A stretch of 64,000 bases of DNA from NCBI RefSeq assembly GCF_001278075.1, contig NZ_CP011340.1:1736001-1800000 (forward strand), given 5' to 3'. Position numbers and translations under genes: made by a program. Numbering within the stretch: the stretch's first letter is position 1; every line of letters begins with the position of its first letter. Source of the stretch: Streptomyces pristinaespiralis (GTDB lineage: Bacteria > Actinomycetota > Actinomycetes > Streptomycetales > Streptomycetaceae). A model generated the notes under the pieces. It worked only from the letters and a program-made list of their open reading frames with translations. It did not search any database and was not told the origin of the DNA. This document shows, in pieces, positions 32,306 to 38,736 of this stretch.

Positions 32306-33820
32306 TCACGCCTCGATCCGGGGGAACAGCGGAGCGGGAGCGGGAAGGACTCCGCCGACCGCTGTGCACTGCTCCTCGATGCGTGCCGCGGCCCCCGGCA
32401 GGAACGGCTCCAGCCGGTCGGCGAGGACCAGGCACGCCTGCAGGAGGGCGTCGAGAGCCCGGTCCAGGCGCTGCCCGGCGTCGGGGTCTCCGGCCCTTTC
32501 TGCCTTGGCCGACTCCCAGGGCCGGGTGGCGTCCACGCAGCGGTTGGCCTCCTCCACGATCGTCCATACCGCGGCCGCCGCCCGGCGGAAGTCGAAGCCT
32601 GCGAGGGCCGCCGCGATCAGGCGGGGGCTGTCGTCGCACGCCTCGGCCAGTGGCTTCGAGGTGAGCCCGAGGGGGCGCGACGCCGGAGGGCGGCCGTCAC
32701 GGTAGCGGTGGACCATGGTGACGACGCGGTTCACCAGGTTGCCCAGCCCGCCGGCGAGGTCGCTGTTGGCCCGGTCCACGAGGCGTTCCCGCGTGAAGTC
32801 CGCGTCGCCGACCCGCGGTACGTCACGCAGCAGCCACCAGCGGACCGCGTCCGTGCCGGCGTCGGCGGCCAGTTCGACCGGATCGACCGTCGTGCCGCTC
32901 GACTTGCTGATCTTGCGGCCGTCGACGGTGAGATAGTCGTGGACCAGGATGTCGGTCGGCAGCGGCAGCCCCGCCGACAGGAGCATCGCCGGCCAGTAGA
33001 CGGCGTGGAACCTCAGCACACCCTTGCCCGCCAGGTGGACCCGCCTGCCGCTCCCGCGCCACCACTCGTCGAACGTGTCGTCCCCGGTGCCGTAGCCGAG
33101 GCTGGTGACGTAGTTGCCGAGCGCGTCCCACCACACGTAGACGACCTGGTCGGGGTCGCCGGGGACGGGGATGCCCCAGCCGCGGGCGCGGCTCTGGGAG
33201 CGGGAGACGGAGAAGTCGTGCAGACCGCCCTCGATCAGGCCGAGGACCTCGTTGCGGCGTGAGGCGGGCTCGATCCGCAGCGTGCCGTCCGTGATCAGGT
33301 CCCGCAAGGTGCCGGCGTGGCGGGAGAGCCGGAAGAACCAGTTCTCCTCGGACACCCGCTGGGGCTCCGTGCCGTGGTCCGGACATCGGCCCTCTTCGAG
33401 GTCGCCTGGCGTGTAGAACTGCTCGCAGCCCACGCAGTACAGCCCCTCGTAATGCCTGCGGTACAGGTCCCCCGCCTCGGCGCACCGCTGCCACAGCCGT
33501 TCCACACCGGCGCGGTGCCGCGGGTCGCTGCTGGTGCGGATGAAGTCGTCCGACGACAGGGCGAGCGGTCCGCGCAGGGCGGCGAACGCGGCGGCGTTGC
33601 GGTCGACGAACTCCTGCACCCCGACGCCCTCCGCCTCCGCCGCGAGGACGTTCTTGAGCGAGTTGTCGTCCGTGCCGGTCAGGAAACGGACCTGTTCGCC
33701 GGACCGACGGCCGTGCCGGGCCAGCACGTCGGCCTGCACCAGCTCCAGGGCGAAGCCCAGGTGCGGCCGGGCGTTGACGTACGGGACGGTCGTGGTGATG
33801 TAGGTGCGTGCGGCAGTCAT
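32306..33820 (-). CDS. metG: Methionyl-tRNA synthetase
   Basis: 504 aa from ATG 33820 with AGGAGG 8 nt upstream. Class I synthetase: YVNARPHLGFAL (HIGH-type motif, residues ~14-25), a CVGCEQFY / CPDHG zinc knuckle (~130-150), VYVWWDALGNYVTSLGYG, the KISKS loop (KMSKS equivalent) and the C-terminal helical anticodon-binding domain ending at PFLPGAAARIEEQ. It charges tRNA-Met in the cytoplasm. It lacks the tRNA-binding C-terminal domain of longer MetRS forms. The 5' leader carries a Met-codon peptide and a terminator/antiterminator pair (33871-33959), so expression is probably controlled by the supply of charged Met-tRNA. Whether it is the sole or an accessory metG cannot be judged here. Confidence 0.93.
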   Translation of the reverse strand: MTAARTYITTTVPYVNARPHLGFALELVQADVLARHGRRSGEQVRFLTGTDDNSLKNVLAAEAEGVGVQEFVDRNAAAFAALRGPLALSSDDFIRTSSDPRHRAGVERLWQRCAEAGDLYRRHYEGLYCVGCEQFYTPGDLEEGRCPDHGTEPQRVSEENWFFRLSRHAGTLRDLITDGTLRIEPASRRNEVLGLIEGGLHDFSVSRSQSRARGWGIPVPGDPDQVVYVWWDALGNYVTSLGYGTGDDTFDEWWRGSGRRVHLAGKGVLRFHAVYWPAMLLSAGLPLPTDILVHDYLTVDGRKISKSSGTTVDPVELAADAGTDAVRWWLLRDVPRVGDADFTRERLVDRANSDLAGGLGNLVNRVVTMVHRYRDGRPPASRPLGLTSKPLAEACDDSPRLIAAALAGFDFRRAAAAVWTIVEEANRCVDATRPWESAKAERAGDPDAGQRLDRALDALLQACLVLADRLEPFLPGAAARIEEQCTAVGGVLPAPAPLFPRIEA

Positions 33821-33870
33821 TCGGAAGCCTCCTCCTGTGCCGGGCGGGGCTTCCACCTGCGTACGCGAAA

Positions 33871-33892
33871 GAGGCCCCGTTCCCGGGGCCTC
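33871..33892 (-). terminator. Attenuator terminator in metG leader
   Basis: On the transcribed strand GAGGCCCCG-GGAA-CGGGGCCTC forms a perfect 9-bp stem with a GNRA-like tetraloop, followed by TTTCGCG. It lies 20 nt after the leader-peptide stop and 50 nt before the metG start. Its 5' arm (GCCCCG, 33884-33889) can instead pair with CGGGGC inside the leader-peptide coding region (33918-33923), giving an antiterminator. Confidence 0.8.
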
Positions 33893-33911
33893 GGTACGTC
33901 ACACGTCCGAC

Positions 33912-33959
33912 TCAGCAGCCCCGTCTGCGGGGCATCATCGGGAACGAGTGCGTGGTCAT
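33912..33959 (-). CDS. Leader peptide of metG with tandem Met codons
   Basis: ATG 33959 to TGA 33912 encodes 15 residues, MTTHSFPMMPRRRGC. The two consecutive Met codons (33933-33938) sit just before a hairpin, GCCCC-GCAGAC-GGGGC (33918-33933), that overlaps the end of the ORF. A ribosome stalled at these codons would mask the 5' arm and free GGGGC to pair with the terminator. No Shine-Dalgarno sequence is seen; the ORF is probably leaderless. Confidence 0.75.
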   Translation of the reverse strand: MTTHSFPMMPRRRGC

Positions 33960-33965
33960 GCCGGG

Positions 33966-33971
33966 AGGCTA
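33966..33971 (-). promoter_or_regulatory. Probable -10 box for leaderless metG leader transcript
   Basis: On the minus strand TGC-TAGCCT fits an extended -10 element (TGn-TAnnnT). It ends 6 nt before the leader ATG at 33959, which places the transcription start at or next to the A of the ATG. No convincing -35 hexamer is seen. Confidence 0.5.
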
Positions 33972-34030
33972 GCAGGGGGCGGCGGGGCGGGGCCGGGCAT
34001 TTTCCGCGGGCCGCGCCGCGCGCCCGCCCG

Positions 34031-35223: not shown

Positions 35224-35910
35224 TCAGGAGGGGTCGGCGTCCTCCCGCACCGTGAGCCGGGCCACCTCCCGCATGGTGCGCAGGATCTCCGGCCGCGCCG
35301 CGGGGCGTGAGGCGAGGCCCCGGGGGCTGGGGTGCCAGGTCGCCAGGGTGCGGACCGCGGGGGCGTAGCGGGCGACGTACGCGGCCCAGCCGGCCTGGGC
35401 GCTGCGGCCCATGGGCACCACGACCTCCAACTTCGGCAGCAGCGAGATCACTTCGTGGAGGAACGGCGCCGCGAGCTGTACGTCGGTACGTCCCGCCGCG
35501 GCGATCCGGTCGGCCGTGCCCAGGTACCACGGAACGATGTTCCAGTGCAGGGAGTGCTCGTAGGCCAGCCCCGCCTCGCGACGGAGCAGCCAGCAGTTCT
35601 GGGCGGTCGGGTCGTTGTTGTCGACGGAGATGATCCCGCTGCCCGTGCGCCGCAGGCCCGCCCCGCTGCCCACGGCCTTCCTGCCGGGCGCCTCCAGCAG
35701 GAAGAGGCTGCGCGCCTCGACCCCGCCGGAGGCCGGGTCGAACCACGGAACGGACTCGCCCTGATCCAGCCGCTCACGCAGGTCGGCCACCCAGTCGTTG
35801 AGCGGGCGCACCGACGGACCGGTACGTACTGCCTTGAGCCGCGCGGTGAGGAAGACGGGATCCCGCAGGCTGCGGGGAGCCGTGGTGGGCGCGAAGCTTT
35901 TCACAGACAT
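35224..35910 (-). CDS. Uracil-DNA glycosylase superfamily protein
   Basis: 228 aa. Superfamily features: FLLEAPGRKAV (motif 1 region), SVDNNDPTAQNCWLLRREAG, HWNIVPWYLG, and the C-terminal motif TWHPSPRGLASR, which corresponds to the HPSP loop of UDG-fold enzymes. Members remove uracil or other bases from DNA, although several UDG-like proteins have other roles. No Fe-S cysteine set is seen. Function on DNA is inferred from the fold. Confidence 0.8.
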   Translation of the reverse strand: MSVKSFAPTTAPRSLRDPVFLTARLKAVRTGPSVRPLNDWVADLRERLDQGESVPWFDPASGGVEARSLFLLEAPGRKAVGSGAGLRRTGSGIISVDNNDPTAQNCWLLRREAGLAYEHSLHWNIVPWYLGTADRIAAAGRTDVQLAAPFLHEVISLLPKLEVVVPMGRSAQAGWAAYVARYAPAVRTLATWHPSPRGLASRPAARPEILRTMREVARLTVREDADPS

Positions 35911-36043: not shown

Positions 36044-38560
36044 TCACACCGCGGGCACACCGTCGGGGAACGCCTGTTCCGTCCAGATCGTCTTGCCGGA
36101 ACGGGTGTAGCGCGTGCCCCAGCGCTGGACGAGCTGGGCGACGATGAACAGCCCGCGGCCGCCCTCGTCCTCGGCCGTGCTGTGGCGCAGGTGGGGTGAG
36201 GTGTGGCCGGTGTCCGCCACCTCGCACAGGAGCGTCCGGTCGCGGATCAGGCGGAGTTGAAGCGGTCCCTGCGCGTAGCGGACCGCGTTGGTCACCAGTT
36301 CGCTGACGACCAGCTCGGTCGAGAACGCCAGTTCGTCGAGGCCCCAGGTGCTCAGCTGCCCGGTGATGAGTTCCCGTGCCCGGCCGGCCGCCACCGCTTC
36401 CGCCGGCAGCTCCCACATCGCGACCTGCCCGGCGTCGAACTCGCGGGTGCGGACCAGGAGAAGGGCGGTGTCGTCGGCGGTCGTGCCGTCCGGCAGGAGC
36501 TCGGCGACCACCCGGTCGCACAGTTCCTCCAATGGCAACTCCCGGTGGGCGGCCAGCACTTGGCCCAGCAGGTCGAGCCGCTCGTCGATGTCGCGGTCAC
36601 GGGCCTCCACCAGACCGTCGGTGAACAGGGCGAGGAGGCTGCCCGCGGGCAGGTCGATCTCCATCGACTCGAACGGCAGGCCGCCGAGTCCCAGCGGCGG
36701 CCCCGCGGGCAGCTCCGGGTAGTGGTACGAGCCGTCCATGGCCACGACCGCCGGCGGCAGATGCCCGGCGCGTGCCATCGTGCAGCGGCCGGAAACCGGG
36801 TCGTAGACCGCGTAGATGCAGGTCGCGCCGGTCGTCACGTCGGGATGCGGACCGGCTGCGACGTACGCCCCCGCCGCCTCTCCCGTACGCCCCTCCCCCG
36901 GCCCCTGGAACGCGTCGGAGGCGGGTACCACCAGGTCGTCCAGTCGTGCGAGGAGTTCGTCGGGGGCCATGTCCAGCTCGGCGAGGGCCTCCACGGTGGT
37001 GCGCAGCCGTCCCATCGTGACCGCGGCCGGCAGCCCGTGGCCGACGACGTCGCCGACGACCAGCCCGACACGTGCGCCGGAGAGCGGGATGAGGTCGAAC
37101 CAGTCGCCGCCGACCCCGGTCGCCCCGTCGGTGGGCAGGTAGCGGTGGGCGACCTCCACGGCCGAGTGCCAGGGAAGGTGCTGCGGGAGCAGCTCGCGCT
37201 GGAGGGTGAGGGCCGCGGCGTGTTCGCGGGTGAAACGGCGGGCGTTGTCGATGCGGACGGCGGCCCTGGCCACCAGTTCGTCGGCGAGGGCGAGCTCCCC
37301 GTTGTCGAAGACCGCCGGCCGGCCCTCACGGGTGAAGGTGACGAGGCCCAGGGTCTCCGAGCCGACCCGCAGCGGCACGACGAGCGCGTTCTCGTCGAGC
37401 ACCTTGCCGCCGGAGGACAGACTGCGAAGCTGCGGGGTCCCGGGCAGGTACTCGATGACCGTGCGGGCGGCCCGCGCCGGCGCCCTGGCGACCCTGACGA
37501 AACCGCCTCTCGCCGGCCGGCCGGTTTCGGGCTCGCCGCCTTCGAGGACGCCCGGCACGATGTCGACCTCGACCGCGGAGGCGAAGCCGGGCACCGCCAC
37601 GTCCGCGAGCTCCTGAGCGGTGACCACCGCGTCGAGGGTCGTGCCGATGCGGCGGCCCGCCTCGACCAGCAGGGCCAGCCGGTTCTGGGCGTCGTAGCGG
37701 TCGGTGATGTCGAAGGCGTCCTCGCACACGCCGAGCACCCGGCCCTCCGCGTCCTCGAGCCGGTAGTACGAACACGACCACAGATGGTCCCTGCCGGGAT
37801 CGCTGGGCAGTTCCCCGAGGAACTGCACGTCGAGCACGGGCTCGCCGGTGTCGAGGACCTGGCGCATGACGGCGTCGAGAGTGCGGGGGTGACCTTGGGT
37901 GACGAGCGCGCCGCCCGGGTACAGCTCGTCCGCGTGCGTGCCGCGGTACTGGGGGAACGGCCGGCCGATCTCCGCGCTGGAAGCGGCGTTCGCCCAGGCC
38001 AGCCGGAGGTCCGTGTCGTAGATCGCCAGTCCGATCGGGGACTGTGTGGCCAGCCCGTCGAGCATCGCCAGGCGGGATTCCCACACCCGCAGCCGTTCCG
38101 TCTCCGCGAGGACGAGGACCCGCGCGGCCGTCCCGCCGCCGGCCAGCTCCGACACCGCCGCCTCGACCGGGACTGCGTGACCGTCGCGGTGTCGCGCGAG
38201 CCGGGGCTCATGACCGCGGAAGGGCAGCCCCGGTGCGCCGGGCAGCACGGAGGACGCCGGGGAAGGGCCGGGTTCCGGCGGGCCGGCGGCCGGACCGGAC
38301 GGAGGTCCGGAAGCCGCCGCCGGCGCGGTTCCGCACAAGAACACGTCGACGGGCCGTCCGAGGATGTCCTCGGCGGCGTGTCCGAGCAGCGCCTCGGCGG
38401 CCGGGCTCCACCCGATGACCCTGTCGCGGGCGTCGAGGACCACCGTGGCGGCGACAGTGATGTCGAGCGGGCCACGGAGATCCTCGGCCTCCGCCGATCC
38501 CCATGGCCGCCAGGCGCCTGCCGCGTCCCACGCGCCCGCAGCCTGAACAGACCCGTTCAT
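36044..38560 (-). CDS. PAS-GAF-SpoIIE (PP2C) phosphatase with anti-sigma-type kinase domain
   Basis: 838 aa. Order of domains: PAS (~20-155, with a Pro-rich insert near 75-110), second PAS (~165-270; IGLAIYDTDLRLAWANAA), GAF (~285-450), SpoIIE/PP2C phosphatase (~465-690; GDWFDLIPLSGARVGLVVGDVVGHG with metal Asp residues, and FTDGLVEARD), and a C-terminal HATPase_c of the anti-sigma (RsbW) type (~705-838; ELVTNAVRYAQG, DEGGRGLFIVAQL). Such proteins switch sigma factors by dephosphorylating anti-anti-sigma factors. ATG 38560 is preferred; TTG 38596 is an upstream option. No partner anti-sigma antagonist is adjacent. Confidence 0.95.
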   Translation of the reverse strand: MNGSVQAAGAWDAAGAWRPWGSAEAEDLRGPLDITVAATVVLDARDRVIGWSPAAEALLGHAAEDILGRPVDVFLCGTAPAAASGPPSGPAAGPPEPGPSPASSVLPGAPGLPFRGHEPRLARHRDGHAVPVEAAVSELAGGGTAARVLVLAETERLRVWESRLAMLDGLATQSPIGLAIYDTDLRLAWANAASSAEIGRPFPQYRGTHADELYPGGALVTQGHPRTLDAVMRQVLDTGEPVLDVQFLGELPSDPGRDHLWSCSYYRLEDAEGRVLGVCEDAFDITDRYDAQNRLALLVEAGRRIGTTLDAVVTAQELADVAVPGFASAVEVDIVPGVLEGGEPETGRPARGGFVRVARAPARAARTVIEYLPGTPQLRSLSSGGKVLDENALVVPLRVGSETLGLVTFTREGRPAVFDNGELALADELVARAAVRIDNARRFTREHAAALTLQRELLPQHLPWHSAVEVAHRYLPTDGATGVGGDWFDLIPLSGARVGLVVGDVVGHGLPAAVTMGRLRTTVEALAELDMAPDELLARLDDLVVPASDAFQGPGEGRTGEAAGAYVAAGPHPDVTTGATCIYAVYDPVSGRCTMARAGHLPPAVVAMDGSYHYPELPAGPPLGLGGLPFESMEIDLPAGSLLALFTDGLVEARDRDIDERLDLLGQVLAAHRELPLEELCDRVVAELLPDGTTADDTALLLVRTREFDAGQVAMWELPAEAVAAGRARELITGQLSTWGLDELAFSTELVVSELVTNAVRYAQGPLQLRLIRDRTLLCEVADTGHTSPHLRHSTAEDEGGRGLFIVAQLVQRWGTRYTRSGKTIWTEQAFPDGVPAV

Positions 38561-38736
38561 CCTCTTCAGAATCTGCCTGCCCCGCCGGATGCACAAGCGT
38601 TGCCGGTGAGGTGGGAAGGGCCGTGCCGCGCGGCCGCGCCTTCCCGCCTCACCGGTCGCCCGTCCCCGTCGCCCGCCCCCGTCGTCCGTCTCCGGCCGAC
38701 AGGGGCCGTCACCGTGCGTGCCGCTCCTCGGCCCGG

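Follow-up and report, generated by a model that had tools for sequence, protein, structure and literature searches.

Organization of the metG leader

The window examined here is a 64,000-nucleotide stretch of Streptomyces pristinaespiralis DNA, and all positions below are counted within it. Upstream of a methionyl-tRNA synthetase (MetRS) gene, metG, a first-pass annotation had described an extended -10 box, a leaderless open reading frame (ORF) with two consecutive Met codons, a hairpin overlapping the end of that ORF and a 9-bp GC hairpin. All of these were found where they had been placed, on the minus strand, and the features of the region are as follows.

34000..34003, minus strand: A-tract within GGAAAA, resembling an UP element, 29-32 nt 5' of the -10 hexamer (sequence)
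33974-33966, minus strand: extended -10 promoter element TGCTAGCCT (sequence)
33971-33966, minus strand: -10 hexamer TAGCCT (sequence)
33959-33912, minus strand: leaderless leader-peptide ORF MTTHSFPMMPRRRGC, 15 codons (ORF translation)
33938-33933, minus strand: Met codons 8 and 9, in tandem and proposed to do the sensing (sequence)
33933-33918, minus strand: hairpin 1 (segments 1:2), GCCCCG CAGA CGGGGC, 6 bp (sequence)
33933-33928, minus strand: segment 1 of hairpin 1, GCCCCG (sequence)
33923-33918, minus strand: segment 2, CGGGGC, the proposed antiterminator arm, with its partner at 33889-33884 (complementarity)
33892-33871, minus strand: 9-bp GC terminator-like hairpin (segments 3:4), GAGGCCCCG GGAA CGGGGCCTC, with arms at 33892-33884 (GAGGCCCCG) and 33879-33871 (CGGGGCCTC) (sequence)
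33868..33870, minus strand: short U run 3' of the terminator-like hairpin (sequence)
33823..33854, minus strand: possible hairpin over the metG Shine-Dalgarno (SD) sequence AGGAGGAGG (33836-33828) (fold)
33820-32306, minus strand: metG, accessory MetRS with HLGF replacing HLGH, ATG at 33820
35224-35910, minus strand: uracil-DNA-glycosylase superfamily protein near metG
36044-38596, minus strand: PAS/SpoIIE phosphatase near metG

The leader ATG at 33959 is separated from the -10 hexamer by 6 nt, and hairpin 1 begins inside the second Met codon of the ORF. The complementarity that had been pointed out between the 3' arm of hairpin 1 and the 5' arm of the terminator-like hairpin is confirmed in the sequence, such that segment 2 has two alternative partners, segment 1 or the GCCCCG of segment 3 (33889-33884). 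The U-tract of the window is only UUU, followed by CG, and the fold z-score of the 146-nt leader (-2.34 in a single-sequence fold) is modest taken alone. An Rfam search of the window returned no riboswitch or T-box match at the gathering score, and none of the three sub-threshold matches around the leader was to a riboswitch. A T-box or SAM riboswitch had been considered as a candidate at this site and was rejected for lack of a match at the gathering score.

An accessory methionyl-tRNA synthetase gene

The window genome contains two MetRS genes, both above the family cut-off, and the metG of the window is the accessory MetRS, not the housekeeping gene, with the other copy being 40% identical to it. 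The first-pass annotation had correctly named metG as a MetRS gene, and had missed that this is a rare second copy and that the leader is tied to that copy, in rhizobia as well. Solved structures related in sequence to the metG product are MetRS enzymes. Among 295 same-genus genomes, matches at E<=1e-130 were found in 13, with 73-100% identity in 11 (the window genome included) and 52-54% identity in the other two; the accessory copy is counted in 11 of the 295 genomes. All 20 genomes checked by family search have a MetRS above the cut-off.

The HIGH motif reads HLGF, HIGF or HVGF in 83 of the 93 MetRS proteins at the loci examined below and HLGH in the remaining 10, which include L013 and L014; the housekeeping copy of the window genome is also of the HLGH type. 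Six rhizobial accessory MetRS proteins read HVGF, and four housekeeping-type copies read HxGH.

Conservation of the leader

To follow the leader beyond the window, 93 accessory MetRS loci were compiled, 13 from the same-genus search and 80 kept of 346 relatives, with some genomes present in both sets. The taxa sampled included Streptomyces, Actinacidiphila, Streptacidiphilus, Kribbella, Saccharothrix, Actinomadura, Micromonospora, Phytohabitans and Streptosporangiaceae, among others. The first-pass annotation had expected the same arrangement in relatives, and it is present at 89 of the 93 loci, a degree of conservation which shows that it is not the product of chance. The leader is absent at the remaining four loci, namely L013 and L014 (the 52-54% proteins), L081 and L093. 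It should be noted that L013 was removed as a spurious ORF from the automatic scan, and that the row of L053 and the metG start of L009 were set by hand. Removal of five loci that were >97% identical left 84 non-redundant leaders.

In 44 of the 84 leaders the -10 hexamer is separated from the leader start codon by 6 nt, and in the other 40 by 7 nt, in a search that allowed 4-9 nt; on the basis of this constant gap the mRNA is predicted to be leaderless. The search required T and A at hexamer positions 1-2 and T or G at the last position; G occurs at position -2 of the extended -10 in 94% of the leaders, with TG/CG having been favoured in the scoring. An AAA whose first base lies at -45 to -22 relative to the -10 is found in 58 of the 84 leaders versus 675 of 25482 background 26-nt windows (2.6%), and no conserved -35 box was found in the 84 leaders. 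An A-tract approximately 30 nt 5' of the -10 with no -35 box looks like a promoter of the UP-element type.

An in-frame internal Met codon lies beside hairpin 1 in all 84 leaders, the first of them at codon 8 to 13, and 70 of the 84 leaders carry Met-Met (14 do not). A short leader ORF with codons matching the amino acid of the downstream gene, as expected of an attenuator, is thus found in sequence and conservation, its translation being predicted. The stop codon falls within the loop of hairpin 1 in several lineages. Several different residues (P, R, A, G, S, T) follow Met, and the CCCC/GGGG arms of the RNA hardly change. These patterns bear on the idea of an arrest peptide, in which the nascent chain itself, perhaps together with a drug, would stall the ribosome. 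MMPR-type C-termini are indeed widespread, as such a peptide would lead one to expect, but the N-terminal part and the residues after Met both vary (MMPR, MMRP, MMAP, MMGP, VMSP), the conservation follows the RNA arm, and the Met-Met-Met of the rhizobial leaders described below has other flanks. We therefore consider an arrest peptide very improbable.

Pairing of the leader segments

Both pairings seen in the window recur in relatives, as had been anticipated. Across the 84 leaders, 90.0% of cells are paired in hairpin 1 and 98.2% in the terminator-like hairpin (over 8 aligned pairs), while the five positions of the antiterminator core (2:3) are complementary in 73, 84, 84, 83 and 76 of the 84. 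The covarying stems for which the first-pass annotation had called were not found, the stems being nearly invariant: a single pair shows double changes, in 6 sequences only, and RNAalifold on all 84 leaders recovers only the cores of the two hairpins with zero double changes. The near-invariance of the sequence reflects the need for three segments to match each other, and it leaves support from covariation almost nil. Same-locus 2:3 pairing is likewise no better than swapped pairing (z 0.31), in a swap test that is confounded by relatedness, as is evident from the scores of unrelated pairs (-3.35 for 2:6, -2.87 for 1:4, +2.62 for 3:5 and +4.76 for 3:6).

In the 8 nt after the terminator stem, U makes up 35% of the positions and at least 3 U are present in 50 of the 84 leaders versus 12% of background windows. 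Long U runs are rare, with at least 4 U among the 8 nt in 24 of the 84 tails and TTT in 10, and the U-tracts are poor in many Streptomyces leaders.

Folding with the ribosome at the stall or stop position

The consequences of ribosome position were examined by folding each leader only as far as segment 3, a stage at which segment 4 has yet to be transcribed, with the ribosome occluding the RNA at either the stall or the stop. A ribosome stalled at the first internal Met was assumed to reach 13 nt from the first base of its A-site codon, and a terminating ribosome to reach 9 nt beyond the stop. The mean number of antiterminator pairs among the 84 leaders is 7.45 for the stalled ribosome, 2.14 for the ribosome at the stop and 2.32 without a ribosome. 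The stalled state exceeds the stop state by at least 2 pairs in 83 of the 84 leaders and the ribosome-free state by at least 2 pairs in 78. The difference between stall and stop (5.31) compares with 1.64 when the spacer is shuffled, the highest shuffled set reaching 2.13, and the real leader lies above all 30 of its shuffles at 31 of the 84 loci, including the window leader. Folding thus recovers what is expected of an attenuator, a mutually exclusive antiterminator and terminator selected by stall versus stop position, and this excess over shuffled controls supports the trp/phe-type logic, with Met as the sensed amino acid, that had been proposed for the window.

As a positive control, the same procedure placed stall above stop in 9 of 10 trpE-type leaders. 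In the exception, L115, the automatic choice of terminator took another hairpin; in L112 and L118, the antiterminator forms to roughly the same extent with no ribosome as with a stalled one. Full-length equilibrium folding with an occluded ribosome was also tried and was replaced, as the terminator stays formed even when the ribosome is stalled and the states differ weakly. Since the terminator persists in these full-length folds, the choice between hairpins must be kinetic, and a kinetic choice of this kind is what we propose for the metG leader, as in classical attenuators. What computation shows is the anatomy of the leader, its conservation and the folding switch. Two further readings of the same sequences were weighed.

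The palindromes could instead be DNA operator sites for a repressor, rather than RNA hairpins, a reading to which near-invariant inverted repeats 3' of a promoter would be well suited. However, the loop of the terminator and the spacing between the hairpins vary (19-40 nt between segments 2 and 3), the in-frame Met ORF is kept, and the stall-dependent pairing switch exceeds that of shuffled sequences. Nor is a regulator gene common nearby: the neighbouring genes share no conserved family, the largest being common to 5 of 74 accessory MetRS loci in flanks of up to 4 kb. An operator is, in our view, highly unlikely.

The remaining reading is translation attenuation, as in attenuators of the ermC type, in which the switch would act mainly through the hairpin masking the metG SD sequence. 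In this scheme an off state with 1:2, 3:4 and 5:6 would give way to an on state with 2:3, 4:5 and an unpaired SD; alternatively, 2:5 would pair across a standing 3:4. The SD region is expected to be paired in 74 of the 84 leaders, and 4:5 forms in the on state of 40 of the 84. Segments 5 and 6 of the same locus pair better than swapped ones (z -7.7, not corrected for relatedness), and the poor U-tracts in many Streptomyces members would also fit. Against this, SD accessibility goes up in only 18 of the 84 leaders and down in 12, burial of the SD is barely beyond that of shuffles (0.27 versus 0.33 unpaired), and in the swap test the score of 4:5 is matched by that of 2:6, an unrelated pair. Applied to 62 SD regions (62 of the 84 rows, long-insert and odd-SD rows having been left out of the alignment), RNAalifold yields 4 pairs, none with double changes, and 4 of 6 rhizobial terminators are followed by a run of at least 5 U. 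A six-segment domino that includes the metG SD, though attractive, was set aside as not consistently supported by the swap test, accessibility or shuffles, and regulatory use of the third hairpin is not supported beyond modest statistics. We regard control mainly through the SD as improbable, if somewhat less so than an operator or an arrest peptide.

Covariance-model searches and related leaders

A covariance model, R1, was built from the metG leaders alone and run over the 295 same-genus genomes, where it gave 33 matches at E<=0.001. The best 11 matches (91-109 bits) fall in the genomes with a close accessory MetRS; since these are training sequences or near copies of them, they demonstrate specificity only and provide no independent support. 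The twelfth match (66 bits) is a decayed leader in genome G180 (L106) from which the internal Met codons are gone, and no MetRS match was found within 1.5 kb of it. Of the 21 weaker matches, 18 loci were read and comprised 12 trpE-type leaders (WWW), one trpS, one thrS, one other Met leader and three unclear cases. Downstream genes were typed by family search at three of these weaker loci only, giving a threonyl-tRNA synthetase (L111) and a tryptophanyl-tRNA synthetase (L122) above cut-offs and an anthranilate synthase-like protein (L112) below them. As the next matches after the metG leaders are of the trpE, trpS and thrS types, the model reaches leaders already described as attenuators. R1 gave no match at the housekeeping metG locus.

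At E<=1e-7, R1 gave 6 matches in 293 genomes of the order and 5 in 296 genomes of the class, the window genome included. Eight loci from these searches were considered, of which L130, L131, L132 and L143 share leader peptides with training rows, and L133, L144, L145 and L146 have leader peptides that differ from them. A long MetRS match (59-76% identity) adjoins the leader in seven of the eight; at L133 (genome G313) the leader is degenerate and the MetRS is reduced to a 43-residue match.

Other leaders were also noted. At L111 (genome G058), the leader MIKRADLTTTPESVPAR, with three Thr codons, lies 5' of the threonyl-tRNA synthetase. A second, unrelated Met leader, MQHTATLAMMRMMPPPPEALR and variants of it, with four internal Met codons and a strong U-tract terminator, occurs at L119, L125, L126, L127 and L129. 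The gene that follows leaders of the MQHTATLAMMRMMPPPPEALR type encodes a protein of the SAM hydroxide adenosyltransferase family (SAM_HAT_C, PF20257; L119 is the one locus at which it was typed), located as follows.

L119:572-1624, minus strand: SAM_HAT leader locus

A SAM_HAT_C protein match (E<=1e-20) was found in 4 of 246 Streptomyces genomes, each of which has the Met leader; the match in G223 is in two pieces. In the folding test, stall was above stop in 3 of 4 SAM_HAT leaders, with L125 as the exception. Hydrolysis of SAM by a protein of this family could return methionine.

Plasmid-borne and rhizobial loci

In a search of plasmids, the accessory MetRS turned up in both Embleya and Streptomyces, on large linear plasmids that also carry the leader. 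In addition, MetRS proteins that are 47-49% identical occur on Rhizobiaceae plasmids (nine records), and six of the seven rhizobial loci read have a leader with Met-Met-Met (e.g., MNRSLANATMMMPRS), a hairpin and a terminator-like hairpin. The seventh, L142, where the MetRS match begins at residue 89, has no such leader. The run of at least 5 U mentioned above is present after the terminator in all of the six except L138 and L141, and the folding test placed stall above stop in all six.

In a tree of 30 proteins, the accessory MetRS of rhizobia and those of actinobacteria group together as sister clades (support 96/95), and the housekeeping enzymes of rhizobia, Nocardia and Streptomyces fall outside this group; the branch of the Streptomyces housekeeping row is long. 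These data fit best with shared ancestry of leader and enzyme across actinobacteria and rhizobia, or with the transfer of both; convergence of the actinobacterial and rhizobial leader and enzyme is the alternative.

Proposed mechanism

We propose that the accessory MetRS is controlled by ribosome-mediated transcription attenuation, with the leader acting as the sensor of charged Met-tRNA, and we assign this reading a probability of roughly 0.87. The transcription start, ORF translation, stalling and termination that we infer for the metG leader would operate as follows. Transcription would begin at or beside the first base of the leader ATG. With ample Met-tRNA, the ribosome would reach the stop codon and cover segment 2, such that hairpin 3:4 forms and halts RNA polymerase. 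When elongator Met-tRNA is scarce, either through methionine starvation or through inhibition of the housekeeping MetRS, the ribosome would stall once its A site holds Met codon 8 or 9, covering segment 1 and freeing segment 2, which would pair with segment 3 before segment 4 is made and allow metG to be transcribed. With no ribosome on the leader, hairpin 1:2 forms in the folds, which would leave the terminator free and metG off. Severe shortage of Met-tRNA would also leave metG off, because fMet-tRNA starts the leader and initiation would stop. Since initiation needs fMet-tRNA and the terminator is free when no ribosome is present, the device would answer partial, not total, loss of Met-tRNA.

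Relation to known systems

The nearest parallel is trpS1 of S. coelicolor, which, according to work by Vecchione and Sello in 2010, is reportedly an auxiliary antibiotic-resistant tryptophanyl-tRNA synthetase under ribosome-mediated attenuation. Like the metG system, trpS1 reportedly combines an accessory Streptomyces synthetase with a leader containing cognate codons and alternative hairpins, and the synthetase that stands beside a housekeeping copy in auxiliary enzymes of the trpS1 type has its counterpart in the window genome. The metG leader differs in sensing Met, which is also the initiating amino acid, and in that its enzyme is a MetRS for which resistance is only putative. A second MetRS with altered inhibitor sensitivity is likewise said to have been described in S. 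pneumoniae by Gentry in 2003, with a second metG in some strains; it resembles the window genome in the second metG and belongs to another lineage. On the basis of the trpS1 parallel and the altered HIGH motif, the accessory MetRS is possibly inhibitor-resistant and may have a role in tolerance of MetRS inhibition, and the altered motif (83 of 93) is, as a sign of such resistance, only suggestive.

With respect to attenuation in Streptomyces, Seliverstov 2005 (PMC1262725) predicts attenuators at trp operons, trpS and leuS, and reports having seen none of the conserved kind of RNA structure upstream of methionine operons. These attenuators resemble the metG leader in having a leader ORF with cognate codons, an antiterminator and a terminator, and serve other amino acids. 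The S. lividans reannotation (PMC8079986) lists eight leaders, including those of thrS and alaS and a Met-containing one before metNIQ. The latter, metL, is similarly a leaderless Met-containing leader peptide proposed as an attenuator, but in that account it has 29 residues with scattered Met, no typical terminator and an importer operon downstream. In the passages of PMC8079986 consulted, no cross-species test of metL appears. The first-pass annotation knew of no Met attenuator for actinobacterial metG, and searches of an open-access library turned up no paper describing a leader attenuator for MetRS. Because a Met-containing metNIQ leader has already been proposed in S. lividans (PMC8079986), Met leaders in Streptomyces are not wholly new.

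If the proposed reading is correct, Met would be a further amino acid to be sensed through leader-peptide attenuation, and one for which the comparative support is strong; a sensed amino acid that also starts the leader would offer a sharp test of elongator versus initiator Met-tRNA pools. A broader and more speculative scenario, which we hold only tentatively and think rather less likely to be right than wrong, is that the Met attenuator and the accessory MetRS with its changed HIGH motif form a self-contained cassette. This cassette, carried by chromosomes and large plasmids, would be spreading through Actinomycetota and Rhizobiaceae as an inducible defence against a natural MetRS inhibitor yet to be discovered, with tandem Met codons letting elongation sense the loss of Met-tRNA before initiation fails. 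Accessory MetRS genes would, if the proposed attenuator is real, be inducible rescue enzymes, pointing to possible natural MetRS inhibitors in soil.
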